From Lutispora saccharofermentans (lineage in GTDB: Bacteria; Bacillota; Clostridia; Lutisporales; Lutisporaceae), in contig NZ_JAJEKE010000008.1 of assembly GCF_024363565.1 (NCBI RefSeq), forward strand, positions 1 to 64,000: a DNA stretch of 64,000 nt. The letters run 5' to 3'. The position numbers and the translations under genes were made by a program. Below the pieces are notes generated by a model. That model ran no database searches and was not told the DNA's origin. It saw only the letters and a list, made by a program, of their open reading frames with translations. Every line of letters begins with the position of its first letter. Position 1 is the first letter of the stretch. Positions 3,691 through 46,345 of this stretch are shown here, one piece after another.

Positions 3691-3716
3691 GAATCAACTT
3701 TAAGGAGGCAAACATA

Positions 3717-24756: not shown

Positions 24757-24903
24757 ATTCAGGAAAGCATGTTGAAGAGCTAATATATATGGTATAATAT
24801 GGACAAATATGTTGCAATATTTTGACAATGCATGAATAGGACAACTGTCAGTAAAATGGCCCAACGATCGGCACAGGATGCATTTTATATGAGGAGGCTT
24901 AGA

Positions 24904-25485
24904 ATGCTAAAGGTAAGACAAATTTCAAGTGACTTTATTGAAATGATAAAACTTGATTTATTTGAAAAAGAAGATTTAAAAAGAATTATAGAATGGAATG
25001 CAAATAAATCTGCTGATGATTTATTACAATGGGCTGGACCTATGTACAATTATCCTTTAACACTTGTACAAGTTGAAAATTACTTTTTAAATGAAGTTGA
25101 AAAGGACAATTCCAATATCTTTGTTTATAAAATACAACTTATTAATACAGGTGAAATTATCGGAACTATTGAGTTACGTGAAGTAGATGAAAATAATAAA
25201 ATAGGCAAGATTTGCAGGTTCCTAATCGGAGAAGAAAATATTAGAGGGAGAGGCGTTGGAACTGAGGTTCTAAAAGAAATATTACGAATTGGCTTTGAAG
25301 ATCTAAAGTTTGAAAAGATAACGCTTGGCGTATTCGATTTTAATCAAAGTGCAATTAAATGCTATGAAAATGCGGGCTTCACAAAAGTAAAATTTACTGA
25401 AAATGCAAGAAAATCATCAAATGGGTATTGGAATTTATATGAAATGATTATTTCAAAAGATGAGTGGCAAATAAAAAATAAGTAG
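24904..25485 (+). CDS. GNAT family N-acetyltransferase with borrowed 5' end
   Basis: About 193 residues from ATG 24904, after GAGGAGG. The acetyl-CoA-binding segment is CRFLIGEENIRGRGVGTEVL, with NQSAIKCYENAGF at the C-terminus (RimJ/RimL type). The first eleven residues (MLKVRQISSDF) and the RBS are nearly identical, 41 of 43 nt, to the start of the unrelated GNAT at 28372. A second natural start seems to follow (IKLDLFEKEDL), so this looks like a chimera. Its stop codon abuts a left-truncated attC-like repeat. Confidence 0.85.
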   Translation: MLKVRQISSDFIEMIKLDLFEKEDLKRIIEWNANKSADDLLQWAGPMYNYPLTLVQVENYFLNEVEKDNSNIFVYKIQLINTGEIIGTIELREVDENNKIGKICRFLIGEENIRGRGVGTEVLKEILRIGFEDLKFEKITLGVFDFNQSAIKCYENAGFTKVKFTENARKSSNGYWNLYEMIISKDEWQIKNK

Positions 25486-25582
25486 TCACACATGCCTTCA
25501 CTGGGTGTGAAGCACCGCCAAAGGTTATTCCTTATAGGCCCGGTTCAGATATGTCGGCAAGCCGAAACATTATCTGCAATAC
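25482..25582 (+). repeat. attC-like repeat 1, left half missing
   Basis: Matches the right two thirds of the repeat at 28921-29067 (AAGTAG, CTTCAC.GGGTG.GA, GCACCG.CAA, ATTCCTTA, CCGGTTCAG). It ends in ATTATCTGCAATAC (25569-25582), the reverse complement of the left end of the repeat at 30263 (13 of 14). Confidence 0.7.
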
Positions 25583-25618
25583 TTATGAAAGGAAAAATAG
25601 AGCGGGGTTGAATTTAAT

Positions 25619-25867
25619 ATGAGTGAAATAGATATAAGGAAACATATACCTACTTTAGAAGAAGCAAAAATCCTATTAGATGATGGACGAAAATTAAATC
25701 CAGGTAAATGGATAGAACATTCAATGTATGTAGGTAAAGCCGCACAATTAATTGCACAGAATTGTTCCAATCTGAATCCTGAGACGGCACTCATTTTAGG
25801 TATGTTACACGACATTGGGAGAAGATTTGGAGTTACAAGCATGAGGCATAGCATAGTAAGTAAATGA
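25619..25867 (+). pseudogene. HD-domain protein, N-terminal fragment
   Basis: 82 residues (MSEIDIRKHIPTLEEAKILL...) reading into an HD phosphohydrolase core: CSNLNPETALILGMLHDIGRRFG contains the HD pair. It stops abruptly after RHSIVSK, where complete family members continue. Nucleotides 25735-25856 are repeated at 30005-30126 (119 of 122 identical). It is the 5' part of a cassette whose 3' part lies 4.3 kb downstream. Confidence 0.8.
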
Positions 25868-25895
25868 AACGTTGGCCATGCGTAAACGTTAGGCG
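25865..25895 (+). repeat. attC-like right-end fragment
   Basis: A short remnant with two R'-like boxes, GTTGGCC and GTTAGGCG (25888-25895). The second is the exact reverse complement of CGCCTAAC at 32623-32630 and matches CGCCTA at the end of the adjoining GNAT unit (26566-26571). Confidence 0.55.
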
Positions 25896-25992
25896 TAATC
25901 GACCGGTGAGCCACTGTATCATGCGTGGATTGCTGGAGAAGGTATGACAATAAATTTATATTATATTTGGCGGAAGAGAGGAGAGGTTAATT

Positions 25993-26574
25993 ACGAGTAT
26001 ACGAATATGTAGGCTTACCCCCGAACTGTTAGACGATTACCTGTATTTTTTTGAAAATGTAGCCCATACAGATAATAAGGAATGGGATCGTTGTTATTGC
26101 CTTAATTACTGTAGTGAAGCTAATGCAGGTAGGGATTTTTCATCTCTGGATGTAAGGAGAGAATATGCAATAAAGTATGTTAAAAGCGGAAAAATACAAG
26201 GCTATTTAGCATATTGTGAGAATAAGGTCGTCGGATGGTGCAATGCTAATCGCAAATCAGACTGTTTGAAATGTGGGGGTTGGCAGCTAATATCAAAGAA
26301 TGATAAAGCTTATGATCCAAATTTAAAAATTAAATCAATATTTTGCTTTACTGTGGCACCCGATATGCGAAGAAAAGGTATTGCGACACAGCTTTTAAGC
26401 TACGTCTGTGAAGAAGCCATACAAAATGGTTTTGATTACATAGAAGCTTATCCAAATAAAAGGGAAAGCAACGTATATTATGATTATGTTGGCCCATTAG
26501 ATTTATATAAAAAGTTTGGATTCGCTTTATATAAAGAGACAGACCAAAGATTTGTGATGCGAAAACGCCTATAG
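25993..26574 (+). CDS. GNAT family N-acetyltransferase with lost or non-canonical start
   Basis: 193 codons homologous end to end with the GNAT at 36251 (e.g. PELLDDYL, IQGYLAYC.NKVVGWCNAN.KSDC, GFD..EAYPNK, LYKKFGFA). The codon aligned to the sibling's ATG is ACG (25993); the preceding codon is ATT, behind a GGAGAGG site. The first in-frame ATG is residue 92. Acetyl-CoA loop APDMRRKGIATQLL is intact. Either weak initiation at ATT/ACG or a gene silenced by start loss. Confidence 0.75.
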   Translation, partial: TSIRICRLTPELLDDYLYFFENVAHTDNKEWDRCYCLNYCSEANAGRDFSSLDVRREYAIKYVKSGKIQGYLAYCENKVVGWCNANRKSDCLKCGGWQLISKNDKAYDPNLKIKSIFCFTVAPDMRRKGIATQLLSYVCEEAIQNGFDYIEAYPNKRESNVYYDYVGPLDLYKKFGFALYKETDQRFVMRKRL

Positions 26575-26655
26575 CTTTATAAGGGCACCACACCGCTTTG
26601 CCGGGCGGCAAGCGAGGGCTCCGCTAGTTCGGTTCACCAGCGTCGTGAAAGCGAG
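26566..26655 (+). repeat. attC-like repeat 2
   Basis: Begins with CGCCTA inside the last codons and stop of the GNAT gene, then AAGGGCACCACACCGC, a G+C-rich hairpin (TTGCCGGGCGGCAA) and GTTCGGTTCACCAGCGTCG, the same order as in the other repeats but with a divergent middle. Confidence 0.55.
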
Positions 26656-26705
26656 ACTTGTTGAAGAGTATTGCACGAATAAAAAGATTTGAGGAGGTTA
26701 ACTTG

Positions 26706-27002
26706 ATGCGTCAAAAGTGTGGGAAATGTGGAACAAAATTCAGGTATAGAAGTATCCAAAAAGCATTCTGGTCTGGAGAATGGTCTGGGGAAAGATTGTT
26801 CAAATGTGAAAGTTGTGAAACAGAGCATAGATTAACTAATTACAGGATATTGTATCTAATATTTGCATTGCCATTATTTTTAATATGGATTCCGTATTCA
26901 AATGCTCGTGGTATAGGGTTCATTATGGTTATCCTATACATTTTAAGCTTTATTCTGCTTATGCCTTTTATATTCAAACTTAAAATGACCAAAGCAGATT
27001 AG
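26706..27002 (+). CDS. Zinc-ribbon membrane protein, TIGR04104-like
   Basis: 98 residues from ATG 26706, after GAGGAGG. N-terminal zinc ribbon CGKCGTKFRYRS...CESC (two CxxC pairs), then two hydrophobic helices (ILYLIFALPLFLIWIP and IGFIMVILYILSFILLMPF). Matches the cysteine spacing I associate with TIGR04104, function unknown. Probably the gene of the cassette following repeat 2. Confidence 0.75.
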   Translation: MRQKCGKCGTKFRYRSIQKAFWSGEWSGERLFKCESCETEHRLTNYRILYLIFALPLFLIWIPYSNARGIGFIMVILYILSFILLMPFIFKLKMTKAD

Positions 27003-27252
27003 TATTCACTGCACCTTTTTTAATCCACATTATTAAATGCAGGTCAGTTTTGTAGTACGAAAGAAGGGGTAAGAGGGACGAAAACCACTGAAGGATCTTT
27101 TCGTGTTGGGAAAGATTCTTCGCTTACGCTCAGAATGACCGCAATGCTGGGCTTTTACGACATTTTATAAAAATTTCCTCATTGAATGGATTATATCGTA
27201 TGAGAAATATAGTAAAAACCTTAGTCCACAAAAATAAATGGAGGATTAGTTT
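27003..27252. other. Intergenic stretch with repeat-like remnant
   Basis: No gene seen. 27095-27140 contains GGATCTTTTCGTG and GATTCTTCGCTTACGCTCAG, a type of short inverted sequence often dispersed in clostridial genomes; only one copy is visible here. Confidence 0.35.
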
Positions 27253-28059
27253 ATGGAATATAATTGGATTAATGCAGAAGAGTTTTCTTTTAATAGCTTT
27301 TTGCTAATGGACAGATGGCTTATTCGAATGATATGCAACAATTATTTGGAATGGAACGAGTTTATTGATAACCTGGGAATAGCTTTAGCATATAACCCAA
27401 CGGTTGCGTGGTACTTTGCTCATAGAAGCCCGGAAAGTAAGCCTTTTATTGATAAGCTAATGGCAATGGCTCCGAAAAATCTTTCAGCCGACGATGTCCG
27501 AAAAGCAGAGATATTTGTAATCCATGCAATGGAAACATCAGTTGTATATGTTCATCCGGATATAATGAACAAAAATTGTGATTACATTTATGATTGGAAT
27601 AAAGAGTTGCTGTTTGAACTTGCAGATTTCACAGATAAGTTAGTCCTTGATGTCGGAAGCGGCACTGGACGGCTTGCATTTGCAGCGGCAGAAAAAGCGA
27701 AGCGTGTTTATGCAAGTGAACCCACCGATATTCTGAGAGAGTAGATGCGTGACAAAATCAAGCGTGAGAATATTAAAAATGTGATAGTTGTAGACGGTAC
27801 AGTAGAACAAATCCCTTATGAGGACAATACCTTTGATATTGTGATGTCAGGGCATGTAGTTGGTGATAATTATGACCTTGAGATTGCTGAATTGACAAGG
27901 GTTGTTAAAAATGATGGCCTCATCATTGATTGCATTGGAGAAGATAATAGGACAAGAGAACCCGATGAAGAGTTATTGAAACGAGGCTTTGAGTCATTTT
28001 ATCATGTCAGTAAATCCGGTGGCGATATTTATAGATATCGCAAAAAAGTTGACAAATAG
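27253..28059 (+). pseudogene. Class I SAM methyltransferase interrupted by in-frame TAG
   Basis: Two segments in the same frame, 27253-27741 and 27745-28059, separated only by TAG at 27742-27744. Together they give a 268-codon methyltransferase: motif I VLDVGSGTGRLA, acidic loop YASEPTD, then TVEQIPYEDNTFDIVMSGHVV. The TAG falls between motif I and the rest of the SAM fold, so the truncated products should be inactive unless read through. A Tyr codon (TAT/TAC) to TAG change is the simplest cause. Confidence 0.85.
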
Positions 28060-28121
28060 GCATTGTTTATCAATAGAATTTAATATAAAATCCGCAGATA
28101 AGTATCAGACCATATATATTC

Positions 28122-28232
28122 TAGGCAAAAGTGCTGGAAGGAAGTCTCTGGAGTGGGAGATGCACCACACCTGAGCCTTGAGGGGCATCTCGCTAAGGGT
28201 CTCGGTGTCAGAGATATCAAAACGTTATCTTC
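28122..28232 (+). repeat. attC-like repeat 3
   Basis: Contains GTGCTGGAAGGAAGTCTCTGGAG (matching 32645 onwards) and CACCACACC, and ends CGGTGTCAGAGATATCAAAACGTTATCTT, closely similar to 36092-36118. GTTATCTT (28224-28231) is the exact reverse complement of AAGATAAC at 28921, the far end of the next cassette. Confidence 0.65.
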
Positions 28233-28371
28233 AATATGGCGAAGGGCCGGGCATCCTTGCCCAGATTTGTTAGTAAAATTTTGTTGGATGGTTTATATCA
28301 GTTCATAACTGTAGAATAAGAAGAATTAAAAGTTAAATATTTTATAGTCATATCAGATTAGGAGGCATAGA

Positions 28372-28845
28372 ATGCTAAAAGTAAGACAAATTTCAAGTGA
28401 CTTCGCGGATATTGTTCATAACATACAAAAAAAATCATTTGAACCATTGCTTAATAAATATCATGATTATGATATTAATCCTGCAATGGAGAGTGTTGAG
28501 CAAATCAGAGAAAAGATTGATAGAGCCAATACGACAGCATATATTTTTGAGCTTAATGATATTTATGTGGGATGGGTCAGAGTAACGGAATTGGAGGATA
28601 TTACATATAAGATTTCAGCTTTGTGTGTTCTTCCAGGATATCAAAATAGAGGAATTGCACAAGAAGCATTGAAACAAATAGAAAGCTATCATTCAAATGC
28701 ACAAAAATGGACTTTAGATACAATATTTCAGGAAAAGGGAAACTGCCACTTATATGAAAAATTGGGATATGTAAAAGTCGGCGAGTTAGAGCAAATAAAT
28801 GAAAGAATGGTAATTGTTAAATATATGAAAATTTGTAAAGCATGA
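28372..28845 (+). CDS. GNAT family N-acetyltransferase
   Basis: 157 residues, ATG after AGGAGG. Acetyl-CoA-binding stretch ALCVLPGYQNRGIAQEAL; C-terminal CHLYEKLGYVKVG. The cassette is complete: right box of repeat 3 before it and complementary left box of repeat 4 after it. Its first 11 codons plus RBS are copied in front of the GNAT at 24904. Confidence 0.9.
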   Translation: MLKVRQISSDFADIVHNIQKKSFEPLLNKYHDYDINPAMESVEQIREKIDRANTTAYIFELNDIYVGWVRVTELEDITYKISALCVLPGYQNRGIAQEALKQIESYHSNAQKWTLDTIFQEKGNCHLYEKLGYVKVGELEQINERMVIVKYMKICKA

Positions 28846-28920
28846 TTGTGATATATAGTATTCTTAAAGCACAATTTTTATTATAGTGAATAGAGAGGTT
28901 TTTAAGGAGTGACCATACTA

Positions 28921-29067
28921 AAGATAACAATGCATTGCCGCAAGGACGCTAAGAGTTGGAGTATGAAGTAGACATGCCATATCGCTTCACCGGGTGCGAG
29001 CACCGTCAAGGTGTATTCCTTAAATGTCCGGTTCAGCAATATTGGAGATGCGAGGCGTTATGTGACA
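28921..29067 (+). repeat. attC-like repeat 4
   Basis: 147 bp: left end AAGATAACAATGCATTGCCGC, central CTTCACCGGGTGCGAGCACCG hairpin region, CCGGTTCAGCAATATTGG, right end GCGTTATGTGACA. Left and right ends are not complementary to each other beyond the core; they pair with the neighbours (28224 and 29954). Confidence 0.75.
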
Positions 29068-29102
29068 TACTTTTGGTGGAGGCGGTAATGAAAGGAGTTA
29101 TT

Positions 29103-29936
29103 ATGAAGAGGTATTTTATAAAAATCAATGAGAGTAATGTACATATTACTGAATGGGGTAATTCAGATAATCCAGTAATTTTCTGCCTGCATGGCTTAGG
29201 AAGTTCAAGTCTTAGCTTTATTGAAATTGGGGAAGGATTATTAAATCAATTTAGAATCATATCAATAGATGCTCCAGGTCATGGCAAGACGACTGCTTTT
29301 GAACAGGAAACTGACTATGAAATACCGAATATGGTAAGCTGGATATCTAATATTCTCGACGCTCTTAAAATTGATAGGTTTTATTTTTTATCTCATTCAT
29401 GGGGAAGTTTTGTAGCGCTGCATTTCTTGGCTCATTATCCTGATCGAATAAAAGGAAGCATTCTAATTGATGGTGGATATCAAATTAAAAGGGAACAAGA
29501 GATAAGCTTAGAGCAAGAAGTGGACTATTATGAGAAGAATTTTGACGATTACATATTTGATTCATGGGATGATTATTTAAAAGAAGAGCAAAAAAATTAT
29601 CAGCGCTGGTCCTCATTATTAGAATTAGCAGTGAAGGACTTGATGATAGAGGATAATAAAAAAATAAGATGGCATGTAAGAGGAAAAACAGCTAGAAGGA
29701 TGATACATGCTATGTATAAATATGAGACTGTAGATATTTATAATTTACTTCCTAACTCTATTATTCTACTTCGGGCTACATTGCCAAGAGATTTAGAGGA
29801 ACATAGGGATAAGATTGCAAAAGTTTTTCAACAAATGACCGGAGGAATAGTTAAGCCGATTAAAGGTACTATTCACATGTTACATTGGGATAAACCAGAT
29901 GTTGTAGTCGCCGAAATATTATCAAGCTGGATATAA
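29103..29936 (+). CDS. Alpha/beta hydrolase
   Basis: 277 residues from ATG 29103 (MKRYFIKINESNVHITEWG), after AAAGGAG; the longer open frame upstream runs through the attC-like repeat. Hydrolase fold: FCLHGLGSSSLSF oxyanion region, nucleophile elbow SHSWGS (GxSxG-like with Ser in HSWGS), late histidine in GTIHMLHWD. Substrate unknown. Confidence 0.87.
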   Translation: MKRYFIKINESNVHITEWGNSDNPVIFCLHGLGSSSLSFIEIGEGLLNQFRIISIDAPGHGKTTAFEQETDYEIPNMVSWISNILDALKIDRFYFLSHSWGSFVALHFLAHYPDRIKGSILIDGGYQIKREQEISLEQEVDYYEKNFDDYIFDSWDDYLKEEQKNYQRWSSLLELAVKDLMIEDNKKIRWHVRGKTARRMIHAMYKYETVDIYNLLPNSIILLRATLPRDLEEHRDKIAKVFQQMTGGIVKPIKGTIHMLHWDKPDVVVAEILSSWI

Positions 29937-29952
29937 AAAGTAAGAAAAATAC

Positions 29953-30002
29953 ATCACATAATATATGTATTTGTGTAAGGGTACGTAGGGTGAGGACTTC
30001 AG
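29953..30002 (+). repeat. attC-like repeat 5, right part deleted
   Basis: ATCACATAAT (29953-29962) complements GTTATGTGA at the start of this cassette (29057), then GTAAGGGTACGTAGGGTGAGGAC parallels CAAGGGTGTGTAGAGTCGGAGC of repeat 7. The repeat then runs directly into HD-gene sequence at about 30003. Confidence 0.6.
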
Positions 30003-30004
30003 GA

Positions 30005-30227
30005 TAAAGCCGCACAATTAATTGCACAGGATTGTTCCAATCTGAATCCTGAGGCGGCACTCATTTTAGGTATGTTACACGACATTGGGAGAAGATTTGG
30101 AGTTACAAGCATTAGGCATAGCATAGATGGATATAATTTTCTTATTCAGAAGTACTTTGAAAAATGTATAGGCAAATCTTTATATAGTGTACTGCCTGGA
30201 GTTATTGAAAATACATTTAACATTTAA
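30005..30227 (+). pseudogene. HD-domain protein, second fragment
   Basis: In frame from KAAQLIAQDCSNLNPEAALILGMLHDIGRRFG to RHSIDGYNFLIQKYFEKC and a stop, without a start codon or RBS. 122 bp overlap with the fragment at 25735. Together the two fragments supply the two ends of one original cassette, but the full-length protein is still not reconstituted at its C-terminus. Confidence 0.8.
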
Positions 30228-30262
30228 AGGGTAAGAACAGAATAACATAATATTAGTGAGAC

Positions 30263-30416
30263 GTATTGCAGATAACACAGCATGACTACAAGGGTGCGGA
30301 AGAAAAGGCTCTGAAGTCTGCGCACCACATCCCTTCACCGAGCGCGAAGCGCCGCCAAAGAAGAAGGGCTTTGAGGGTCCAGTTCAGCGGCGTCGGGCAT
30401 GCAGGCCGTTAAGCGA
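30263..30416 (+). repeat. attC-like repeat 6
   Basis: 154 bp. Left end GTATTGCAGATAACACAGCATGAC, centre CACCACATCCCTTCACCGAGCG with hairpin GCGCGAAGCGC, then GTCCAGTTCAGCGGCGTCGGGCATGC, right end GTTAAGCGA. The latter is exactly complementary to TCGCTTAAC at 31066. Confidence 0.75.
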
Positions 30417-30501
30417 TATTAAAAGAATGTTTCATATAGGAGAGATTTTTTTACAATATTAGTATATAATTAAGATAAGATAGCAAATTGGAGGTGGAAT
30501 A

Positions 30502-30681
30502 ATGCAAGTTTTAAAGCAAGATATTATGAATCTAGTGTCCAATTTACCCGAAAAGTTTGACATGGAAGAATTTATGTATAAATTATATGTTTTAGATAAA
30601 GTCAAAAAAGGTCAGAGAGATATAAAAAAAGGTAATTTTATAGCTGTAGATGAACTACGGAAGGAAACAGAAAAATGGTAA
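30502..30681 (+). CDS. Putative antitoxin of RelE/ParE pair
   Basis: 59-residue acidic/basic mixed protein (MQVLKQDIMNLVSNLPEKFD...) with good GGAGG start. Ends KETEKW, and its last codons overlap the toxin start by 7 nt. The short size, position and overlap are typical of an antitoxin; the N-terminal part resembles short Phd/prevent-host-death-like helpers that accompany RelE toxins. Confidence 0.8.
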   Translation: MQVLKQDIMNLVSNLPEKFDMEEFMYKLYVLDKVKKGQRDIKKGNFIAVDELRKETEKW

Positions 30682-30962
30682 AATGGTCAAAAACAGCTGT
30701 GGATGATTTAAGACGGATATATAATTATATTTCCGAGGATTCAGTAATTTATGCTAAGAAAGTTGTTGAAGAGATAATAAATAAATCGGATTATTTAAAG
30801 GCTTATCCTAATATAGGTAGGGCTATTCCTGAATTGAATAATCCGGGAATAAGGGAATTAATTGTTTATTCATATAGAATGGTATATCAAGTAGAAAGAG
30901 AAGATGTTGAGATACTAACCTTAGTTCACTCAAGGAAAAACTTTGATTTAGAAATTAAATAA
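30675..30962 (+). CDS. RelE/ParE family toxin
   Basis: 95 residues: VKWSKTAVDDLRRIYNYISEDS, AYPNIGRAIPEL, IRELIVYSYRMVYQVE, ILTLVHSRKNF, the classical RelE/ParE layout. The family either cleaves mRNA on the ribosome or poisons gyrase; which one cannot be told by eye. The pair occupies a complete cassette between repeats 6 and 7. Confidence 0.9.
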   Translation: MVKWSKTAVDDLRRIYNYISEDSVIYAKKVVEEIINKSDYLKAYPNIGRAIPELNNPGIRELIVYSYRMVYQVEREDVEILTLVHSRKNFDLEIK

Positions 30963-31064
30963 AATTTAATGATGTATGAGGACTTGACAGTATTATTGTT
31001 TCAATAATAGAAACTTAATTTGCTAAGTCCTTATTAATATTCTAAAGTATACTGTTTTGTTTAC

Positions 31065-31220
31065 GTCGCTTAACAATGCATCTCCACAAGGGTGTGTAGA
31101 GTCGGAGCATGAAGTAGCCGCACCACATCCCTTCAGTGGATGTTAACACCGCCTACGGAGAAGGTGCTTGCAGATCCAGTTCAGGCATTGTCGGTCATGC
31201 AACAATGCTACACTCGATAA
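31065..31220 (+). repeat. attC-like repeat 7
   Basis: Left end GTCGCTTAACAATGCATC, then CAAGGGTGTGTAGAGTCGGAGCATGAAGTAG and CACCACATCCCTTCAGTGG, hairpin GTGGATGTTAACACC, CCAGTTCAGGCATTGTCGG, right end CATGCAACAATGCTACAC. The right box lacks the GTT core, so the junction has been altered. Confidence 0.7.
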
Positions 31221-31255
31221 TTTATTACTGTGAAGCTTCGTGAGGAGTGAGGAAA

Positions 31256-31684
31256 ATGGAAAATGGATATGAAATAACAATTCCGAGAGAAGATGAAGCC
31301 GAGCATATAGGCAATATGTTGCTGCAATTTAATCTCGAATCAATATCGCTTACTCAGGAAAAACCGTTTATCAGCATTAACAGATGTATAAAAAATGGGA
31401 ACGGAGAGATTATTGGCGGGATTTTGGCATGCTCTGCATTGTGGCAAGTTCTATCTATTGATACATTATGGGTAAAAAAAGAATTTCGCAATCAAGGAAT
31501 TGCGAAACAATTGTTGAGTGTTGTGGAAGATAAGGCGAGAAGTATGGGGTGCCATATTGCATATTTAAGTACCTACGATTTTCAAGCTAAAGACTTTTAT
31601 TTTAAAAATGGATATGAAATTTTCGGTATATTGGAGGATTGCCCTAAAGGCCATAGGCTTTATCATTTATCCAAAAAATTATGA
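31256..31684 (+). CDS. GNAT family N-acetyltransferase
   Basis: 142 residues from ATG 31256, spaced correctly from GAGGAG (GTG 31247 is the longer alternative). LWVKKEFRNQGIAKQLL is the acetyl-CoA loop; DFQAKDFYFKNGYEIFG near the C-terminus. Cassette gene following repeat 7. Confidence 0.88.
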   Translation: MENGYEITIPREDEAEHIGNMLLQFNLESISLTQEKPFISINRCIKNGNGEIIGGILACSALWQVLSIDTLWVKKEFRNQGIAKQLLSVVEDKARSMGCHIAYLSTYDFQAKDFYFKNGYEIFGILEDCPKGHRLYHLSKKL

Positions 31685-31706
31685 GCTATAGTTAAGCATA
31701 CTTTTC

Positions 31707-31788
31707 TTAAATTGTGCATTAGATAAACAGGACTTTGTGAGATTTGGAGGAGCGATGTTTTGGCGGCCTCTGAATAGGTAAGCCCTCC
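31707..31788 (+). repeat. Repeat B, copy 1
   Basis: Shares TTAAATTGTGCATTA.ATAAACA, AGATTT, and GGCGGCCTCTGAA.AGG with 36855-36937. Ends GGAGG...CCTCC can form a hairpin. Both copies follow a GNAT gene directly, so it may be a terminator or older cassette boundary that travels with the gene. Confidence 0.6.
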
Positions 31789-31816
31789 AAGATTATATAT
31801 AAACTAGGAGGTATTT

Positions 31817-32575
31817 ATGAAGGAAATAATTTTGTGTGATGATACAGATTTATTGGACGTTATATTATTATGTCAGGAATATTCTTTAGGTATTGAAGTA
31901 CAATCATTTTATGATCCAGAGTACCTTGAAAAAGAGATTGATGGATTACAAAAACATATTGATGCTATAAAAAATGTTAAAAGCAAATCAGTCCATGGTC
32001 CTTTTGCTGATTTATGTCTGGGTAGTTCTGATAAGATGATTAGAGAAGTAACAAGAAACAGATTTGAGTATGCTTATGATGTCGCTAAAAAATTGAAGGC
32101 TCAAAATCTTGTGTTACATCATGGGTATGTGCCTAAGACAAGCTACCCACCAAATTGGATAAAAAGAAGCTTTACGTTTTTTGATGATTTTTTTGCAAAT
32201 AAGAGTAATGATATTAAAATACATTTGGAAAATGTTTTAGAGTTTGATAGTGATATGTTATTTGAGGTGATTGAGGGACTACAAGGTAAAAATATTGATG
32301 TTTGTCTGGATATAGGTCATGCTCATTGTAATTCTAAGATTTCAGTTGTTGAATGGATAAAGAGGTTAAAAGGTAAGATAGGTTATGTACATATGCATGA
32401 TAATAATGGTTTTGAAGATGAACACTTAGGATTGGGGATGGGGAATATTCCTTTAGATGAAGTATGTGAGGTTTTAGAACAATATTCTCCTCAAGCTATT
32501 TGGGCAATTGAGTCTAAGACTGATCATATACAAAAAAGTATAGATTGGATGATGACGCGAGGATACATAAAATAA
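31817..32575 (+). CDS. Sugar phosphate isomerase/epimerase (xylose isomerase-like TIM barrel)
   Basis: 252 residues, ATG after AGGAGG. TIM-barrel metal sites: SVHGPF, LVLHHGYV, HLENVLE, CLDIGHAHC, YVHMHDNNG, AIESKTD, spaced as in the AP-endonuclease-2-like family. Substrate cannot be deduced. Confidence 0.88.
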   Translation: MKEIILCDDTDLLDVILLCQEYSLGIEVQSFYDPEYLEKEIDGLQKHIDAIKNVKSKSVHGPFADLCLGSSDKMIREVTRNRFEYAYDVAKKLKAQNLVLHHGYVPKTSYPPNWIKRSFTFFDDFFANKSNDIKIHLENVLEFDSDMLFEVIEGLQGKNIDVCLDIGHAHCNSKISVVEWIKRLKGKIGYVHMHDNNGFEDEHLGLGMGNIPLDEVCEVLEQYSPQAIWAIESKTDHIQKSIDWMMTRGYIK

Positions 32576-32618
32576 AGAGCTTACCATGCGTGACTACCCT
32601 AACTTAATAGGGTATGGT

Positions 32619-32815: not shown

Positions 32816-32884
32816 CCGCGCTATAGATGAGAGTTCATTCGTAAGCTGGCAAATTTACTTATAATATTAAAAATGGAGATAAAT

Positions 32885-34256: not shown

Positions 34257-34313
34257 TAGGGATTACAAATTCCAAGTTATGGAGCAATATTAGAATATTG
34301 AAGGGATGTGTTT

Positions 34314-35168: not shown

Positions 35169-35280
35169 ACAACTTGGAGGAATAGATATGTCTTTAACCA
35201 TTTTCAGGTGTGGGATAAGATATATTGAAGGGCGAATATGGCCGACATCCAGCCTGGGTTTTAAATAAGAGGTGTATGAA

Positions 35281-36081
35281 ATGTATACTGTAGTAGAAAG
35301 AAAAGATGCTTTAGAAAAATTGATTGAAATCATTTCATCTATGCCAAATGTTGAAGGCTGTCTTTTGGTTGGCTCTGGTGCAATTGGATTTACTGATGAA
35401 TGGTCGGATATAGATGTATCTGTAGTTGTTTATCCGGAAGAGAATACACGAGCTGTTTGGAATGAGCTAAACAAGAAGATCTTAGATAGCTTTAGCATTT
35501 ACAAGTATTTGCTCAATGAATATGGAATAAATAATTACATTACAGTTATTCTGCTTAAAAATTTTTTAGAGATTGATGTTGGCGTGATATCATTAAATAA
35601 CCTATCTGCTAAGCGGGAATACTGGAAGGTGCTGTTTGATAAGTCCAGTAGAGTAGCAGATAAAATGAAAAATACATGGGAGAATCGGAAATACCCTGTT
35701 CTAAGTACTGAGATTGAACAGAGCCTTAACAGCTTTTGGTATAATTTCAAGAATGCTGCTTTTGCAATTAAAAGAAATAAATCATACAGAGCAGTGAAAG
35801 AATTAGAAGAAATTCGGAATGAAATTATTCGGTTGAAGGCTATACAGGAAGATAAGATATCCAAGCACTATAGAGATGTGGATGAAATGGAATCCTGGTT
35901 TATTAAACGGCTTGAAAATACTTTTTTTGGGGAAATAGATATTGCAAGCCTTACTAATTGTTTTGTTAGTTTATTAGACTTGTACTTTGAGGTGGTTAAA
36001 GACATGTATAGAAATTGTGAAGTTAATGAATATGAGGCACAATTGAGGGATTTTTTGTATGAATTAGGAATAATGAATTAA
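35281..36081 (+). CDS. Aminoglycoside/lincosamide-type nucleotidyltransferase
   Basis: 266 residues from ATG 35281 after AAGAGGTG. Polymerase-beta-like nucleotidyltransferase core: LLVGSGAIGFTDEWSDIDVS (GS...DxD) and a third Asp in FLEIDVGVIS, then a helical C-terminal domain. This is the domain organisation of ANT-type antibiotic nucleotidyltransferases, but many family members have other substrates. Adjacent to the beta-lactamase, 112 bp downstream. Confidence 0.78.
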   Translation: MYTVVERKDALEKLIEIISSMPNVEGCLLVGSGAIGFTDEWSDIDVSVVVYPEENTRAVWNELNKKILDSFSIYKYLLNEYGINNYITVILLKNFLEIDVGVISLNNLSAKREYWKVLFDKSSRVADKMKNTWENRKYPVLSTEIEQSLNSFWYNFKNAAFAIKRNKSYRAVKELEEIRNEIIRLKAIQEDKISKHYRDVDEMESWFIKRLENTFFGEIDIASLTNCFVSLLDLYFEVVKDMYRNCEVNEYEAQLRDFLYELGIMN

Positions 36082-36090
36082 AAAATTGAC

Positions 36091-36140
36091 ATCGGTGTCA
36101 GGGACATCAAGACGTTACAACACAGACCGAGCAAATGATG
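36091..36140 (+). repeat. attC-like right-end fragment
   Basis: ATCGGTGTCAGGGACATCAAGACGTTA matches the right end of repeat 3 (28203-28227) with few changes, followed by CAACACAGACC. The left part is absent. Confidence 0.5.
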
Positions 36141-36250
36141 CGTCGTTTTGCCGCAATTTATGAAAGGTTTAGGTTTTACAAAGTATTGCTTCGTATTAGT
36201 AGATAAGTACGAATTAGAGATTATTTATATAATGAGTGAAAGGATTAAAT

Positions 36251-36841
36251 ATGAATATTGAAATTCGCAAGTTGGCACCAGAACTATTAGATGATTATTT
36301 GCACTTTTTTGATACGACACCACATTCCACTAATAAAGACGAACATAGATGTTATTGTGTGTGTTGGTGCAACGATAACTATAAAGACAAAGACTTTTCT
36401 ACTGCGGGGAAAAGAAGAGATATAGCCATTAAATATATAAATGGACATAATATCCAAGGATATCTTGCGTATTGTGACAACAAGGTTGTTGGGTGGTGCA
36501 ATGCAAACACGAAATCAGATTGTTTCGAATGCTGTTCTTGGCAAATGTTTATGAGGTCAGTTCATCAAGACGAATCTTCACCGGGCATAAAAGTTAAATC
36601 TGTATTCTGCTTTGCAATCGCACCGAAAATGAGGGGTAAAGGTATTGCAGGACTATTGTTGAGCCGTGTCTGCGAAGATGCGAAAAAAGACGGATTTGAT
36701 TTTGTGGAGGCATATCCGAACAAAGAATTTATAGACACAGAGGAAGACTTTATGGGACCCGCTAAATTGTATGAGAAATTAGGTTTTGCTATTTGCTACG
36801 AAGCTGATAAAAAACTTGTTATGCGGAAAAAGCTAAAATAA
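36251..36841 (+). CDS. GNAT family N-acetyltransferase, paralogue of 25993
   Basis: 196 residues from ATG 36251. Cys-rich N-terminal half (RCYCVCWCND), GYLAYCDNKVVGWCNAN, acetyl-CoA loop APKMRGKGIAGLLL, EAYPNKEF, LYEKLGFAI. Full-length sibling of the start-defective gene at 25993, showing that related genes occupy two cassettes. Confidence 0.9.
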   Translation: MNIEIRKLAPELLDDYLHFFDTTPHSTNKDEHRCYCVCWCNDNYKDKDFSTAGKRRDIAIKYINGHNIQGYLAYCDNKVVGWCNANTKSDCFECCSWQMFMRSVHQDESSPGIKVKSVFCFAIAPKMRGKGIAGLLLSRVCEDAKKDGFDFVEAYPNKEFIDTEEDFMGPAKLYEKLGFAICYEADKKLVMRKKLK

Positions 36842-36854
36842 CTACGCAAAATTT

Positions 36855-36937
36855 TTAAATTGTGCATTATATAAACACGGCTCTGTTAGATTTTAGGGTC
36901 CGACATCCTGTCGGCCTCTGAACAGGCGGGGTCTCCC
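36855..36937 (+). repeat. Repeat B, copy 2
   Basis: Partner of 31707-31788. GGGTCCGACA/TGTCGGCC stem with TCTGAACAGG. Leads directly into attC-like repeat 9. Confidence 0.6.
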
Positions 36938-37058
36938 ACGTTACATAACACAGCATGACCGTTCGTGCTGGTAGGACAGGCTCTGAAGTGGAGCCAGCAT
37001 ACATGTCTTCACCAAGATAGGAGTTATCTAAGACTTAAGCGTGTCGGCTATGTAACGC
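36938..37058 (+). repeat. attC-like repeat 9
   Basis: Left ACGTTACATAACACAGCATGACC, GGCTCTGAAGTGGAGCC hairpin, CATGTCTTCACC, right GTGTCGGCTATGTAACGCC. Here the two ends of one repeat are complementary to each other (CGTTACATA/TATGTAACG), unlike repeats 4 and 6. Confidence 0.65.
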
Positions 37059-37096
37059 CGTTTTAATGCTTGGGATTTTTCAGGGGGAATAACATT

Positions 37097-37966
37097 ATGA
37101 TAAATATTATTGATACATTCAAAGATTATGAGATATGCTTTCATGACAAATTAGATTCACCTGTAGAAGATAAAATTGATTTATGGAAAAGGTGCTATAT
37201 ATCAAAATATCCCGAGTTGGAGAAAAAATGTAAAGATGGTTATGAGTCTAAAGGTTATAGCTGGAGAAGAATTGCTCAGGAGAAGGTCTTTAACAGAACT
37301 GAAAAAGACTTCAATAAAATGACATGTGCCCATAGAAATATATTGGAGGCTATGAAGAATATAAACACAAGAGCAGAAGAAGTATTTAATTTGGATTTGG
37401 ACATAAATTTGGTTTTATATTGCGGGCTATGCAATAGTGCAGGATGGGTTGATACCTATAACGGTAAAAGAGCAGTTCTCTATGGCATAGATAAAATCGC
37501 AGAGCTTAATTGGCATACAATACAGAAGATAGAATCACTTATATCACATGGACTTTGTCATGTTGTTCATTTTCAAATTAGAGGTGAGGATAATTTACCT
37601 GGTAATGTTGAGCTAAATAATTATAACAAAGGTATTTGGTCTTTATATGAAGAAGGATTTGCACAGTTTTTTCAATACAAGCTATTAGGCAAAGAGGCTG
37701 ATTCAAGAGGAAGAGCGTGGATTGAAGAATGTAGAATTAATGAGAGACAGCTAAAAAAGTTATATTTAGAAGCATTGCATGATGAAGGGAAAGGAACGCG
37801 AGATTTTTTTGGAGATTGGTTTAAAGTATTGGAAATAAGTGATGTGGGATATTTCCTTGGTGCTGAACTGGTCAGAAAGCTATATATTCAATATAATATA
37901 GCATATATTGCACAACTGCCATTTATAGAAATAGAAAAACAGGTGATGAACTTTCTTGAAAACTGA
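37097..37966 (+). CDS. Putative zinc-protease-like protein with altered HEXXH
   Basis: 289 residues from ATG 37097 behind GGGGGA. The central SHGLCHVVHF followed ~45 residues later by LYEEGFAQFF has the shape of gluzincin-like DUF2268 proteins, but the expected HEXXH reads HGLCH: GGA replaces a Glu codon, one base away from GAA. If the assignment is right, the general base is missing and catalysis is doubtful. Confidence 0.6.
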   Translation: MINIIDTFKDYEICFHDKLDSPVEDKIDLWKRCYISKYPELEKKCKDGYESKGYSWRRIAQEKVFNRTEKDFNKMTCAHRNILEAMKNINTRAEEVFNLDLDINLVLYCGLCNSAGWVDTYNGKRAVLYGIDKIAELNWHTIQKIESLISHGLCHVVHFQIRGEDNLPGNVELNNYNKGIWSLYEEGFAQFFQYKLLGKEADSRGRAWIEECRINERQLKKLYLEALHDEGKGTRDFFGDWFKVLEISDVGYFLGAELVRKLYIQYNIAYIAQLPFIEIEKQVMNFLEN

Positions 37967-37980
37967 GGACAATCAATGGG

Positions 37981-38094
37981 GTGAAAGTATTGGCTTCTAA
38001 AGTGTTACATTACTTAATCGCAGAAGAAATAATTAGGAAGATACAGAAGCAGGGATATCAAGCTGTTATAGGCAATCATCATTTGAAGAATTGA
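37981..38094 (+). pseudogene. Short N-terminal gene remnant
   Basis: GTG ORF of 37 codons (VKVLASKVLHYLIAEEIIRKIQ...) preceded by GGGG. The start looks like the N-terminus of metal-dependent phospholipase-C-like hydrolases (HYLIAEEI), which are several times longer. Probably a truncated cassette gene. Confidence 0.4.
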
Positions 38095-38109
38095 TTGGAG
38101 GGTCATATA

Positions 38110-38778
38110 ATGTTTAAAGGTTTTTCTGAAGATACCATTAAATATCTGAAAGAGCTAAATGAGAATAACAATAAGCAGTGGTTTGAAGCCAATAGGGACA
38201 GGTATAAGAAAGTTTTGTATGAACCATTTGAAGAGCTTGTTTTGAATTTAGGTCCTTTTATGTTGTCTATTGATCCTTTATTAGATGTGAATCCAAAGAA
38301 GACAATATCAAGAATAAACCGCGATGTCAGATTCTCAAAAGACAAGAGCCCATATAGAACGAATATGTGGATTGCTTTCAAGAGGACATATCAGGACTGG
38401 AAAGCAGAACCAACGTATTTCTTTGAGATATGCCCCGATAATTATAGATATGGAATGGGTTTTTACAATTTACCAAAAGAATTTATGTCAAAGCTGAGAA
38501 GCATGATAGATGAGGGAGAAAAGAAGTTCACTAAAATTCATTCCCTATACATGAAACAAAAAATATTTAAACTTGAAGGCGAGAAATATAAGCGAATTAT
38601 TAATCCTGATTTATCGGAAGAATTCAATGAATGGTATCAAAGAAAAGAATTATACTTTGCTTGCAGCAGAAAGATTGATGAACGTTTATTTACTCCGCTT
38701 CTAGTGGATGATCTAATTGAAGGATTTGAAAAGATAGCCCCAATATATAACTTTCTCTTAGGATTAAGAGGAAGATAA
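38110..38778 (+). CDS. DUF2461 domain-containing protein
   Basis: 222 residues from ATG 38110 (MFKGFSEDTIKYLKELNENN), after GGAGG. NNKQWFEANRDRYKK, SRINRDVRFSKDKSPYRTNMW and the GFYNLPKEF region are the DUF2461/TIGR02453 pattern. Biochemical role unknown. Confidence 0.9.
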   Translation: MFKGFSEDTIKYLKELNENNNKQWFEANRDRYKKVLYEPFEELVLNLGPFMLSIDPLLDVNPKKTISRINRDVRFSKDKSPYRTNMWIAFKRTYQDWKAEPTYFFEICPDNYRYGMGFYNLPKEFMSKLRSMIDEGEKKFTKIHSLYMKQKIFKLEGEKYKRIINPDLSEEFNEWYQRKELYFACSRKIDERLFTPLLVDDLIEGFEKIAPIYNFLLGLRGR

Positions 38779-38829
38779 TAGGGCGAAATTCAGCTCTTCT
38801 AAGCCAAAGATTTTGCAATCAAAACTAAG

Positions 38830-38876
38830 GCCCGCCATCGCTTTAAGGTTGGATGATCCGGAAAATCCAGGGCGGC
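38830..38876 (+). repeat. Hairpin-forming cassette-boundary candidate
   Basis: GCCCGCC (38830-38836) pairs with GGGCGGC (38870-38876), with an inner TGGAT/ATCCA pair. It sits between two one-gene units, but matches none of the repeats above clearly. Confidence 0.4.
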
Positions 38877-38915
38877 TAGACGAAATACTTCCTAAATTGA
38901 AAGGAGAGCTATAAG

Positions 38916-39740
38916 TTGTTAGTTGACGAATTAAAGTTATATCATAGGAGTGATTGTTTTATCTGGACTGATGAACATATTTCAAAGAATATGTTATCTG
39001 CTCATCTTGACCTTGAGGGTGATGCAGCAAGCCGTAACATAAGAACGATTGAAAAGACCATTGAGTGGTTAACGGATAAGATACCTAAAGGAGGAAAGGT
39101 ATTGGATCTTGGTTGCGGTCCAGGTTTGTATTCTTCATTGTTGGCGAAGAAAGGATATTCAGTTACTGGCGTTGATATTTCAAAACAATCAATATCATAC
39201 GCAAAAAACAAGGCAATGGAAGAGGATCTTCAGATTGATTACCGATATGCGGATTATATAAAAGATGATGTCGGCATGGGATATGATGCCGTGATATGTA
39301 TATATTGTGACTTTGGCGCATTAACTCCAGAAGAACAAACAATATTGCTGAAAAAGATTCATTGTGGGTTATCGGATTATGGAATTTTCATATTTGATGT
39401 GTTTAAAATTGGCTTGTGTAGCAAAATGCAAGAATATAGGAATTGGTATTATGCAGGTAAAGAAACATTCTGGTGCGATAAGCCGCACTTTGTACTTGAA
39501 GAAGTCAAGCATTTTATTGATTATAAAACTTGGGGATCAAGGACTATAATAATTGAAGAAGGAAAAGCTCCTAAGGAGTTTATTATATGGGATAATTACT
39601 ATACAGAGGACGATATTGAAAAGCTATTAAAGAATAATGGATTTAAAATTCTGTCCATAAATAGTAAATTAGTTGCTGAAAATGAATTTACAAGTAATGA
39701 TGTTATGTTTATAGAAGCTAAAAAGTCGATACATGCTTAA
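38916..39740 (+). CDS. Class I SAM-dependent methyltransferase
   Basis: 274 residues, TTG start after AAAGGAG. Motif I VLDLGCGPGLYSSLLAKKG, acidic loop VTGVDISKQSI, motif IV region DAVICIYCDFGAL. Closest in style to small-molecule methyltransferases. Substrate unknown. Confidence 0.9.
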   Translation: MLVDELKLYHRSDCFIWTDEHISKNMLSAHLDLEGDAASRNIRTIEKTIEWLTDKIPKGGKVLDLGCGPGLYSSLLAKKGYSVTGVDISKQSISYAKNKAMEEDLQIDYRYADYIKDDVGMGYDAVICIYCDFGALTPEEQTILLKKIHCGLSDYGIFIFDVFKIGLCSKMQEYRNWYYAGKETFWCDKPHFVLEEVKHFIDYKTWGSRTIIIEEGKAPKEFIIWDNYYTEDDIEKLLKNNGFKILSINSKLVAENEFTSNDVMFIEAKKSIHA

Positions 39741-39795
39741 AAAAGTAATACTTAGGAGTATAATAAATATCTATTTATTATGAGGGGGAAGAAAT

Positions 39796-40272
39796 ATGAG
39801 TAACCGTGTAATTCAGATAACCAATAAAGGGCTAATTGAGCCTCAGCATAAATGTGAACATGAACCTTATGAATATAACAAATATGAAGTAACAAAAAGA
39901 AGCAAAGAAAGTCAATGTTATGTCGCTATATATGAGATTCCACCGAAGAAAGCAAATTATCCATATCACTACCATTTGAAGAATGAAGAGGTTTTTTACA
40001 TTATCAGTGGGAGTGGCCTTTTAGAAACACCTGATGGAAATAAGAACATTTCAGCAGGGGATATTGTGGTATGTCCACCGTCAGAAAATGGTGCACATAG
40101 AATAATTAATAATTCTCAAACTGAAACACTTGTCTACTTAGATTTTGATACGGTTAATTCTCCTGAAGTTGTATTTTATCCTAATTCTGATAAAGTTGGT
40201 GTAATTGTACAAGGTGAGTCAAGCACATTTTATAGAAAGAATACAAACGTAGATTATTATGAAGGTGAGTAA
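39796..40272 (+). CDS. Cupin domain protein
   Basis: 158 residues, ATG after GAGGGGG. Cupin motif 1 PYHYHLKNEEVFYIISGSG and motif 2 GDIVVCPPSENGAHRIIN with the metal-binding His/Glu residues. Possible isomerase, dioxygenase or sensing role. Confidence 0.9.
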   Translation: MSNRVIQITNKGLIEPQHKCEHEPYEYNKYEVTKRSKESQCYVAIYEIPPKKANYPYHYHLKNEEVFYIISGSGLLETPDGNKNISAGDIVVCPPSENGAHRIINNSQTETLVYLDFDTVNSPEVVFYPNSDKVGVIVQGESSTFYRKNTNVDYYEGE

Positions 40273-40336
40273 ATAAAGCGGCTTAAAGCATATTATGATG
40301 ACTTGTGTCATTAGGTAATTATTATTTAATGAACCC

Positions 40337-40445
40337 ACATCCGTGTCGATCTCTGGCTGCGAGGGGCGAATAACTTCGTATAACGGTTTATCAGCATAAG
40401 GGTGCAGGGAGCAAAACATGTAGAACTGCTTCGAAGAGAGAACAT
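40337..40445 (+). repeat. attC-like repeat 10, degenerate
   Basis: CACATCCGTGTCGATCTCTGG parallels repeat B, then TTCGTATAACGGTTTATCAGC and ATAAGGGTGCAGGGAGC parallel the left half of repeats 7 and 8. The right half is unrecognisable. Confidence 0.4.
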
Positions 40446-40523
40446 TAATTAAGTTTGTATCACATATCTTTACCGCAAGCAAAATCAGAGGGTCATACTG
40501 AAAAGAATAAGGAGGACGTATTT

Positions 40524-41144
40524 ATGTTGGACAGCGAAGGATTTGATTTATGGGCCGATGGATACGACGAGAGTGTTAATTTAAGCGAAGAAGACAATGA
40601 TTATCCTTTTGCAGGATATAAAAACCTTCTTAATGCTATTTACAACATAATTCGTAAGAAAGAGAAAGCAAAAGTATTGGATATCGGATTCGGTACAGGA
40701 GTCTTAACTAAAAAATTATATGATGATGGATATGAAATATATGGAGTTGATTTTTCAAAAAGAATGATTGAAATAGCAAAAGAAAAAATGCCCTTGTCCA
40801 GGCTGTTTCAATATGATTTTTCTAAAGGATTACCGAAAGAACTTGAAAACTTATGGTTTGATTATATTATAAGCACTTATGCAACTCACCATTTGGATGA
40901 TAATGGGAAAGTTCAATTTTTTCACCGATTAAGCGAATATATCTCCGATGACGGTGAAATTCTTATCGGAGATGTAGCTTTTCAAACAAGGAAATTATTG
41001 GAGCAGTGTAAAATAAAGTCTGGTGATTATTGGGACAATGAAGAAATTTACATTGTATATGATGAATTGAAAAAATCTTTTCCCCAGAATAATATCAAAT
41101 TTATACCAATATCTCATTGTGCAGGAATTGTTCGATTTAAATAA
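40524..41144 (+). CDS. Class I SAM-dependent methyltransferase (YrrT-like)
   Basis: 206 residues from ATG 40524, after GGAGGA. GFDLWADGYDESVN at the N-terminus, motif I VLDIGFGTGVLTKKLYDDG, acidic loop IYGVDFSKRM, YATHHLDDNGKV. Substrate unknown. Confidence 0.9.
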   Translation: MLDSEGFDLWADGYDESVNLSEEDNDYPFAGYKNLLNAIYNIIRKKEKAKVLDIGFGTGVLTKKLYDDGYEIYGVDFSKRMIEIAKEKMPLSRLFQYDFSKGLPKELENLWFDYIISTYATHHLDDNGKVQFFHRLSEYISDDGEILIGDVAFQTRKLLEQCKIKSGDYWDNEEIYIVYDELKKSFPQNNIKFIPISHCAGIVRFK

Positions 41145-41240
41145 TTATTGCAGCTAAGGTTATGTAGCGGGAACGCCTCATATCTGCGGAGTGATATCGG
41201 GATTATTTTTTTCTTACTCTAACCAAAAAGGAGATATAGA

Positions 41241-41720
41241 ATGTTAAGGAATATGACTTCAATTTATGTTATTTCTAATAATAAGATATTATTGCTTTAT
41301 AGAGTCGGTTCAAGAGTGGTAGAACCATCATGGTGTGGCATTGGCGGACATTTTGAAAAAGATGAATTAAATAATCCCAGAGCATGCGTAATAAGAGAAT
41401 TGTTTGAAGAAACTGGTATTACAGAAAATGATATTGGAAGTGTAAAATTAAGGTATGTCACACTCCGGAAAAAGAATAATGAGATACGGCAAAATTATTA
41501 TTATTTTGCAGAATTACATAATACAGATATAGATATCAGTAAATGTGATGAAGGCACATTGGAATGGATTGAAATCGGACAAGTGCTAAATAGAGTAATG
41601 CCTTTTACAGCAAAGGAATGTTTGAGGCATTATTTAGCTATAGGTAAAGATGATGATAAATTATATGCAGGCATTGCAACTACAAGCGGTGTCGATTTTA
41701 TAGAATTACAGGAATTTTAG
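41241..41720 (+). CDS. NUDIX hydrolase
   Basis: 159 residues, ATG after AAGGAG. Nudix box in GHFEKDELNNPRACVIRELFEETGI: the Gly, REL and EE.GI elements are present, with two extra residues between the first Glu and the RE pair, as in some MutT-like subfamilies. Hydrolyses nucleoside diphosphate derivatives; exact substrate unknown. Confidence 0.9.
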   Translation: MLRNMTSIYVISNNKILLLYRVGSRVVEPSWCGIGGHFEKDELNNPRACVIRELFEETGITENDIGSVKLRYVTLRKKNNEIRQNYYYFAELHNTDIDISKCDEGTLEWIEIGQVLNRVMPFTAKECLRHYLAIGKDDDKLYAGIATTSGVDFIELQEF

Positions 41721-41920
41721 AATTGGGTTACAAATAAATTCTATACCACATATTTACCATAATATTTTTTCATGTTGCTTGGCTGATGATTTTCCAGGTG
41801 TTCTAATTGATTACTGCATAAAGGCTTCTGCCGAGGATTGTTCTGGTGAAGCGTTGAAGTTAATAGCATGATTATGTAAGGTAAAGATTATTTGTATAAC
41901 ATATGTATTGGGGGAATTAA

Positions 41921-42328
41921 ATGAAATCAAATTTTGTCCCAACCGTTAAAAACTCAGCATTATTATATTGTGTAATTTTTACGGTTGCAACATTAGCGGA
42001 CAACATTTGGCAATTGTGCCGGGGACAGATAGCAGATTCAAATTATCATATTATAAATAGGGCAGTGGTTATTTTGATTGCCGTCATAACAATTACATTA
42101 TTTGATAAGTTCAGGTTAAAAAGCAAGCTTTTATCCCACATAATATCCTATGCTATTTCAATGATAGCGGTTTTCACTTATGTATGGTTTACCAGCTTTT
42201 TAGACCCGTTGGGCCCCGGTGCATATCAAGGTATTTTCGTAATTTATACGCTTCTCACTATTTTACTTTCGGTAATAATTGAGATAAAAGAGCGTATTAA
42301 AAGAAAAAGGCAAAGCATAACAAACTGA
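41921..42328 (+). CDS. Small integral membrane protein
   Basis: 135 residues, ATG after GGGGGA. Four hydrophobic segments (around 10-28, 44-60, 70-95, 100-122) and a basic tail IKERIKRKRQ. I recognise no family; function unknown. Confidence 0.75.
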   Translation: MKSNFVPTVKNSALLYCVIFTVATLADNIWQLCRGQIADSNYHIINRAVVILIAVITITLFDKFRLKSKLLSHIISYAISMIAVFTYVWFTSFLDPLGPGAYQGIFVIYTLLTILLSVIIEIKERIKRKRQSITN

Positions 42329-42333
42329 GCATA

Positions 42334-42405
42334 AGTGTGGCTTCGTAGAATAAAGCGCCTCCGCAAGGGTGCAGAGGGTTGGCATGAAGTAAGCACTAAT
42401 AGCAG
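42334..42405 (+). repeat. attC-like repeat 11, degenerate left half
   Basis: CTTCGTAGAATAAAGCGCC, CCGCAAGGGTGCAGAGGGT and GGCATGAAGTAAGCAC follow the order of the left half of repeat 7. Last recognisable member of the repeat family. Confidence 0.45.
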
Positions 42406-42415
42406 GTGGTGAAAA

Positions 42416-46330: not shown

Positions 46331-46345
46331 GATAGAGTTTTTTTA

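Follow-up and report, generated by a model that had tools for sequence, protein, structure and literature searches.

Integrons, whose definition rests on the integrase IntI and its I2 helix, are the textbook example of gene capture. According to the literature, cassettes cannot be captured without the I2 domain, which is absent from other proteins (PMC7790495), and this additional domain is also present in the integrons of archaea (PMC9668308); a survey of tyrosine recombinases found the insertion to be incompletely conserved in an integron-like subgroup (PMC8138268). Integrons have been described as extremely rare in Firmicutes and Actinobacteria, with one complete Firmicutes integron (Limnochorda pilosa) and a few attC clusters with no integrase nearby (CALIN) in various Firmicutes genera (PMC9024848). 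Here we analyse an array of gene cassettes in a 64,000-nucleotide stretch of DNA from Lutispora saccharofermentans (contig NZ_JAJEKE010000008.1, positions 1 to 64,000, hereafter the window), for which a sequence-only reading had proposed an integron-like array of gene cassettes in a chromosome of clostridial type. Our results support this proposal. They also make it very likely, from sequence comparisons, that we are dealing with a chromosomal integron run by a recombinase other than IntI, and that the window holds one of three arrays, an older and decaying one.

No integrase was visible to the sequence-only reading, and indeed there is none within the 64 kb; however, 106 kb downstream of the window array, the same contig carries the best integron-integrase match in the genome (G000:C36:148735-149853, or L015:8736-9854). 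This protein, P0001, is a tyrosine recombinase of 372 amino acids, located upstream of its cassettes and in the same orientation. At this locus (L015), an attI-like region is followed by at least seven same-strand sites, at 10.8, 12.0, 12.8, 13.4, 14.2, 15.0 and 16.1 kb, which belong to the same families as the window sites and form a better preserved array. The third array of the genome (L016, on contig C37) has lost the recombinase of the P0001 kind, but the sequence upstream and a stretch resembling attI are still there. The first cassette starts at a G/TT about 50 to 160 bp past the recombinase stop codon, and in relatives a dyad-like region precedes this G/TT. Of 14 recombinases, 3 (L054, L057 and L067) have a LexA-like box (GAACnnnnGTTY) no more than 260 bp ahead of the start, hinting at SOS control in these cases; the genome of the window has none.

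The C37 array also appears to contain an IS91-like element (L016:6820-8752), comprising a tyrosine recombinase gene with one stop codon and a transposase-like open reading frame (ORF). We rejected this recombinase as a second integrase and treat it as part of the insertion sequence (IS), because the adjoining ORF resembles, by eye, an IS91-type transposase.

P0001 belongs to a family of recombinases with an N-terminal domain resembling HARP, described below, and its catalytic residues RKHRHY are intact. The genome-wide search for intI-type recombinases suggested by the sequence-only reading thus does return a tyrosine recombinase, but not one of the intI type: the IntI model TIGR02249 scores 217 bits against a cut-off of 265 and skips positions 180-230, and no protein of the genome exceeds this cut-off. 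IntI1, like five further IntI proteins, has an I2 segment of 64 residues. The corresponding segment measures 22-23 residues in HARP recombinases from Bacillota and 21-27 in the wider HARP set, a gap shown in the alignment with IntI1. Judged by its sequence, P0001 would fall outside a strict, IntI-based definition of the integron, which calls for the I2/patch III additional domain. Since the recombinase is not of the IntI type, a strict search for intI would have failed. The XerA-like model NF040815 matches above its cut-off (230 bits), whereas the XerC and XerD equivalog models stay below theirs (TIGR02224, 187 versus 335 bits; TIGR02225, 197 versus 330 bits). The nearest solved fold is that of IntI4 bound to attC (2a3v). 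A quick phylogenetic tree separates a clade of IntI proteins (support 100) from one of Bacillota HARP recombinases (support 96).

The N-terminal domain occupies about 75 residues ahead of the catalytic core and displays a W...KxW motif. The Pfam HARP model (PF07443) matches 6 of 10 family proteins, with a best E-value of 1.9e-5, and a profile of 24 N-terminal domains finds the HARP domain of SMARCAL1 as its best PDB match (4o66, E 0.0023). This domain probably recognises folded attC. Three Bacteroidota recombinases (L104, L118 and L131) have long N-terminal parts resembling two tandem HARP-like repeats.

How tightly is this domain associated with cassettes? We considered as testable those loci in named genomes with enough downstream sequence, and looked for a pairing first cassette at most 450 bp downstream of the recombinase. 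This signature is present at 20 of 29 recombinases with an N-terminal extension (1.35 expected from shuffles) and at only 1 of 30 relatives without the domain (0.95 expected). Array-linked HARP recombinases occur in Bacillota, in Bacteroidota and in one Spirochaetota metagenome-assembled genome, with carriers such as Flavobacterium enshiense DK69, Winogradskyella ursingii, Seonamhaeicola aphaedonensis, Zunongwangia mangrovi and Paenibacillus sp. NFR01. In a sample of 397 Bacillota genomes, a close relative was found in 22 further ones (about 5.5%), and at 11 of these 22 loci the short flank available contains a first cassette whose ends pair. A Chryseobacterium plasmid (L148, NZ_CP041688.1) carries cassettes behind a recombinase that is nearly identical (95%) to that of a second Chryseobacterium plasmid, NZ_CP094530.1, and the system may thus be mobile too. 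A HARP-type recombinase, 42% identical, was also noted in an Undinarchaeales metagenome-assembled genome (L068), on a contig that ends just behind the gene.

The cassettes themselves obey a simple rule, already formulated by the sequence-only reading: their ends pair within the cassette, not within one copy of the repeat. Iterated profiles gave 127 sites, mostly from genomes of the same family, and 84 cassettes from homologous arrays were used to examine pairing. Over positions 4-18 of the outer stem, the R' and R'' ends of the same cassette match at 10.5 of 15 positions, compared with 5.67 (standard deviation 0.19) for permuted ends, that is, z = 25, a value inflated by R-box sequences common to some cassettes. 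The two ends of one integrated site match at 5.99 of 15 positions, which is the permuted level. The inner stem L''-L' pairs at 7.24 of 8 positions versus 5.73 (standard deviation 0.09) after permutation, at a nearly constant offset of about 3 nucleotides past AAC and 5-6 nucleotides ahead of GTT. Both R and L boxes are therefore paired in the cassette circle, and the pairing geometry, as read from these sequences, is the one predicted by integration of circles at G/TT. The median cassette measures 917 bp and the median site 145 nucleotides from AAC to GTT.

The window array can be read in the same terms. Its main features are as follows.

24832..42328, forward strand: whole array, same-strand accessory genes separated by related spacers
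25483..25577, forward strand: attC-like site, 3' part (nhmmer 65.7 bits)
25569, forward strand: R' box ATTATCTGCAATAC (G to A), start of the split HD cassette, pairing with 30276 (15/18)
25619..25867, forward strand: HD/HDOD-domain gene, N-terminal fragment, continuing at 30005-30228
26556..26665, forward strand: decayed attC-like site (48.7 bits)
28105..28232, forward strand: attC-like site, type C, with decayed 5' end (62.5 bits); R' box GTTATCTT at 28224
28224..29056, forward strand: cassette with GNAT acetyltransferase gene 28372-28845 (PF00583) and its own attC-like site; ends 28224/28928 pair at 14/18
28922..29063, forward strand: attC-like site, type A (108.5 bits); R'' AAC ends at 28928, R' GTT at 29057
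29057..30004, forward strand: cassette with alpha/beta hydrolase gene 29088-29936 (PF00561), then a truncated attC start; ends 29057/29962 pair at 14/18
30269..30413, forward strand: attC-like site (115 bits); R'' AAC ends at 30276, R' GTT at 30408
30408..31208, forward strand: cassette with a small ORF (30503-30682), ParE toxin gene 30675-30962 (PF05016) and attC-like site; ends 30408/31074 pair at 13/18
31066..31212, forward strand: attC-like site (102.5 bits); R'' AAC ends at 31074, R' end decayed
32622..32744, forward strand: decayed attC-like site (55.4 bits)
36943..37068, forward strand: attC-like site, type B (61.8 bits); R'' AAC ends at 36949, R' GTT near 37060
42346..42395, forward strand: attC-like fragment at the right end of the array (12.4 bits, E 0.009)

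An nhmmer search with sites from the window finds nine matching places between 25483 and 42395, and the related repeats noticed between the genes by the sequence-only reading are indeed attC-like sites. Three of them are well preserved (28922, 30269 and 31066); from 32.6 kb on, most are degraded. The type A site shares 83-84% identity with the sites adjoining the integrase, the type B site 86% with L015 sites, and the ParE cassette has an 88% identical counterpart in a genome of the same genus (G004). Taken alone, the array is an attC cluster with no integrase nearby, the recombinase being 106 kb off. The cargo, which includes GNATs, the ParE toxin, the alpha/beta hydrolase, methyltransferases, NUDIX, cupin, DJ-1/PfpI, nucleotidyltransferase and DUF2461 proteins, as well as a PF00905 protein resembling penicillin-binding proteins, transpeptidases and class D beta-lactamases, bears out the calls made by the sequence-only reading.

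All four pairings quoted by the sequence-only reading are found where it placed them (see the list). One of them ends at 29962 (AAT), the truncated start of a decayed site, and another, 25569/30276, is interrupted by a 4.1 kb block of cassettes that sits inside its HD gene. On either side of this block lies one copy of a directly repeated segment of 122 bp, the two copies being 98% identical (25735-25856 and 30005-30126). Do such pairings exceed chance? A free search for GTT.../...AAC pairs over 24.8-42.6 kb finds 219 pairs versus about 200 in shuffled sequences, that is, no excess, so the pairing claim cannot rest on the window alone. We dropped the free search as evidence and relied instead on homologous arrays, where pairing was tested at the ends of the sites; the four pairings are counted as real because they lie at the ends of sites and because the rule holds in those arrays. 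A strand control on the GTT...AAC pattern was uninformative, since the pattern is symmetric under reverse complement.

At gathering threshold, Rfam detects no structured-RNA family in the array. Elsewhere in the window, T-box leaders are present at 155, 3470 and 7459, and a c-di-GMP-I riboswitch (81 bits) lies at 46247-46331, upstream of the ORF at 46443. The GNAT gene at 31234-31709 has a 99% identical copy outside recognised arrays (G000:C3:71554-72030), which we rejected as a cassette event because its borders are not GTT.

The outer stem bears a mark that distinguishes the two strands. At position 11, 61 of 64 good cassettes have an A in R' facing a G in R'' once the latter is reverse-complemented, which amounts to an A.C mismatch on the top strand and to a G.T pair on the bottom strand. 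Over all positions, changes that keep a wobble pair number 112 on the bottom strand versus 16 on the top strand; when positions 10-11 are left out, the counts are 34 versus 15 (p = 0.009). Since it is the bottom-strand G.T pairs that are kept, we infer that the enzyme acts on the bottom strand of attC in its folded form, like the integrases of known integrons. The A/G position is seen again in Bacteroidota arrays, in 57 of 100 candidate pairs (chance pairs included), and three class 1 (IntI) cassettes do not show the position-11 signature. In the IntI loci retrieved as controls, no array could be read.

Comparisons between species uphold insertion at G/TT, and two of them (L015/L064 and L208/L057) are clean cases of cassette gain or loss at this point. 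The recombinase and attI of L015 (9349-9979) and of L064, from the sister species G002 (3367-3997), share 97.5% identity; homology stops exactly at CATAG/TTA, and the first cassettes differ beyond. Similarly, the cassette that comes first after attI in genome G012 is found mid-array in G007, which belongs to another genus, with 83% identity over 917 bp, and this homology begins exactly at GTT. The expectation of the sequence-only reading that cassettes would be gained and lost at GTT boxes is thus borne out in these two comparisons, but not in the window array itself, which differs from G002 mostly elsewhere.

The comparisons thus show that a cassette runs from one G/TT to the next and ends in an attC-like site, whose outer stem forms only between the two ends of that cassette, hence in the excised circle, and that the content of arrays changes exactly at G/TT, both at attI and within arrays. 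They suggest a mechanism in which the recombinase would attach to attC through its folded bottom strand and exchange this strand with attI at G/TT, thereby excising and inserting cassettes. Folded sites would be recognised without the I2 helix of IntI, probably via the HARP-like domain, of the structure-specific DNA-binding type, and the window array would depend on the recombinase in trans.

Several points weigh against this interpretation. The tree was built quickly, and many of its forks are weak. P0001 itself scores under the Pfam cut-off for PF07443 (17 versus 25 bits), and a fold search with a model of the N-terminal domain returns weak matches to XPB, T4 MotA and MutS-beta, none with E < 0.001; these proteins have in common with HARP a structure-specific DNA-binding fold. 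The difference in folding energy between the two strands is small, about 1 kcal/mol, and the IntI control for the extended stem consists of the three class 1 cassettes only. Finally, the differences between the window array and G002 lie mostly at microhomologies other than GTT (24892/25434 and 33161/33433), and for this reason the array looks old and inactive, with no visible sign of shuffling by the recombinase today.

Could the window array instead be an ordinary CALIN, left by a transferred classical IntI integron, with the HARP recombinase an unrelated Xer-like enzyme? The R and L boxes and the G/TT boundaries match those of classical integrons, and the array is decayed and integrase-free within 64 kb. 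However, the genome holds no match at the level of IntI, HARP recombinases are repeatedly found directly upstream of arrays whereas relatives without the HARP-like domain are not, and the position-11 signature is absent from the three class 1 cassettes; we regard a classical origin as very unlikely. It is also unlikely that the recombinase acts on double-stranded DNA in the manner of Xer or of phage integrases. The inverted ends would then constitute a quasi-palindromic double-stranded site, with no need for folding, which would agree with the missing I2 helix, with the XerA-like character of the closest families and with the length of the outer stem. Yet the ends of an integrated site stem from different cassettes and do not pair, hence there is no palindrome in the integrated double-stranded DNA, and recognition of such DNA would not require strand-specific mismatches that keep G.T pairs on the bottom strand.

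The repeats might also be structured RNAs or remnants of introns or IS, for example group II intron ends, with the end pairings as by-products. The spacers are long and structured, and the IS91-like element apparently inside the C37 array does have its own tyrosine recombinase. Against this, Rfam recognises no family in the array at gathering threshold and the pairing joins the ends of one cassette, not those of one repeat copy, which leaves this explanation hardly credible. A chromosomal integron driven by a non-IntI recombinase thus stands as our preferred interpretation.

Beyond this locus, we would place slightly better than even chances on the existence of two integron lineages. The second, widespread in Bacillota and Bacteroidota, would use folded attC through a domain of the HARP/substrate-recognition type without I2, with a G.T position in a long outer stem marking the strand; either the capture of cassettes at folded sites arose twice, by different molecular means, or the system is older and acquired I2 late. 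In our literature search, neither HARP-type integrons nor integrons without I2 were found described, with preprints and most subscription journals outside its reach. If the proposal of a second lineage is true, a large reservoir of mobile cassettes in two major phyla escapes the tools based on IntI, and the origin of single-strand cassette recombination becomes directly testable by comparing two independent solutions.

How does the system compare with those already known? Its N-terminal domain resembles the HARP, or substrate-recognition, domain of SMARCAL1 (PF07443, 4o66) in profile and in the W...KxW motif; unlike in SMARCAL1, it is fused to a tyrosine recombinase, and P0001 is below the Pfam cut-off. 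The catalytic core lacks I2, as in XerA and XerC/XerD (NF040815, 4a8e, 5hxy), but the enzyme is linked to cassette arrays instead of a dif site and has the extra HARP-like domain, and the genome's own separate Xer genes fall in another clade. In common with sedentary IntI integrons such as the Vibrio superintegron, there is an attI beside the integrase, single-gene cassettes, attC sites of R''-L''...L'-R' architecture and insertion at G/TT. The system departs from these integrons by the absent I2 region (23 versus 64 residues), by the HARP-like domain, by integrase and cassettes in the same orientation, and by an outer stem of about 18 nucleotides with a nearly invariant A.C/G.T position 11; this stem is shorter in many Bacteroidota arrays. 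Taken by itself, the window array is a cluster like the CALIN of other Firmicutes (PMC9024848). Unlike in those clusters, a partner recombinase is identified here, and as it is not an IntI, detection based on IntI would miss it.

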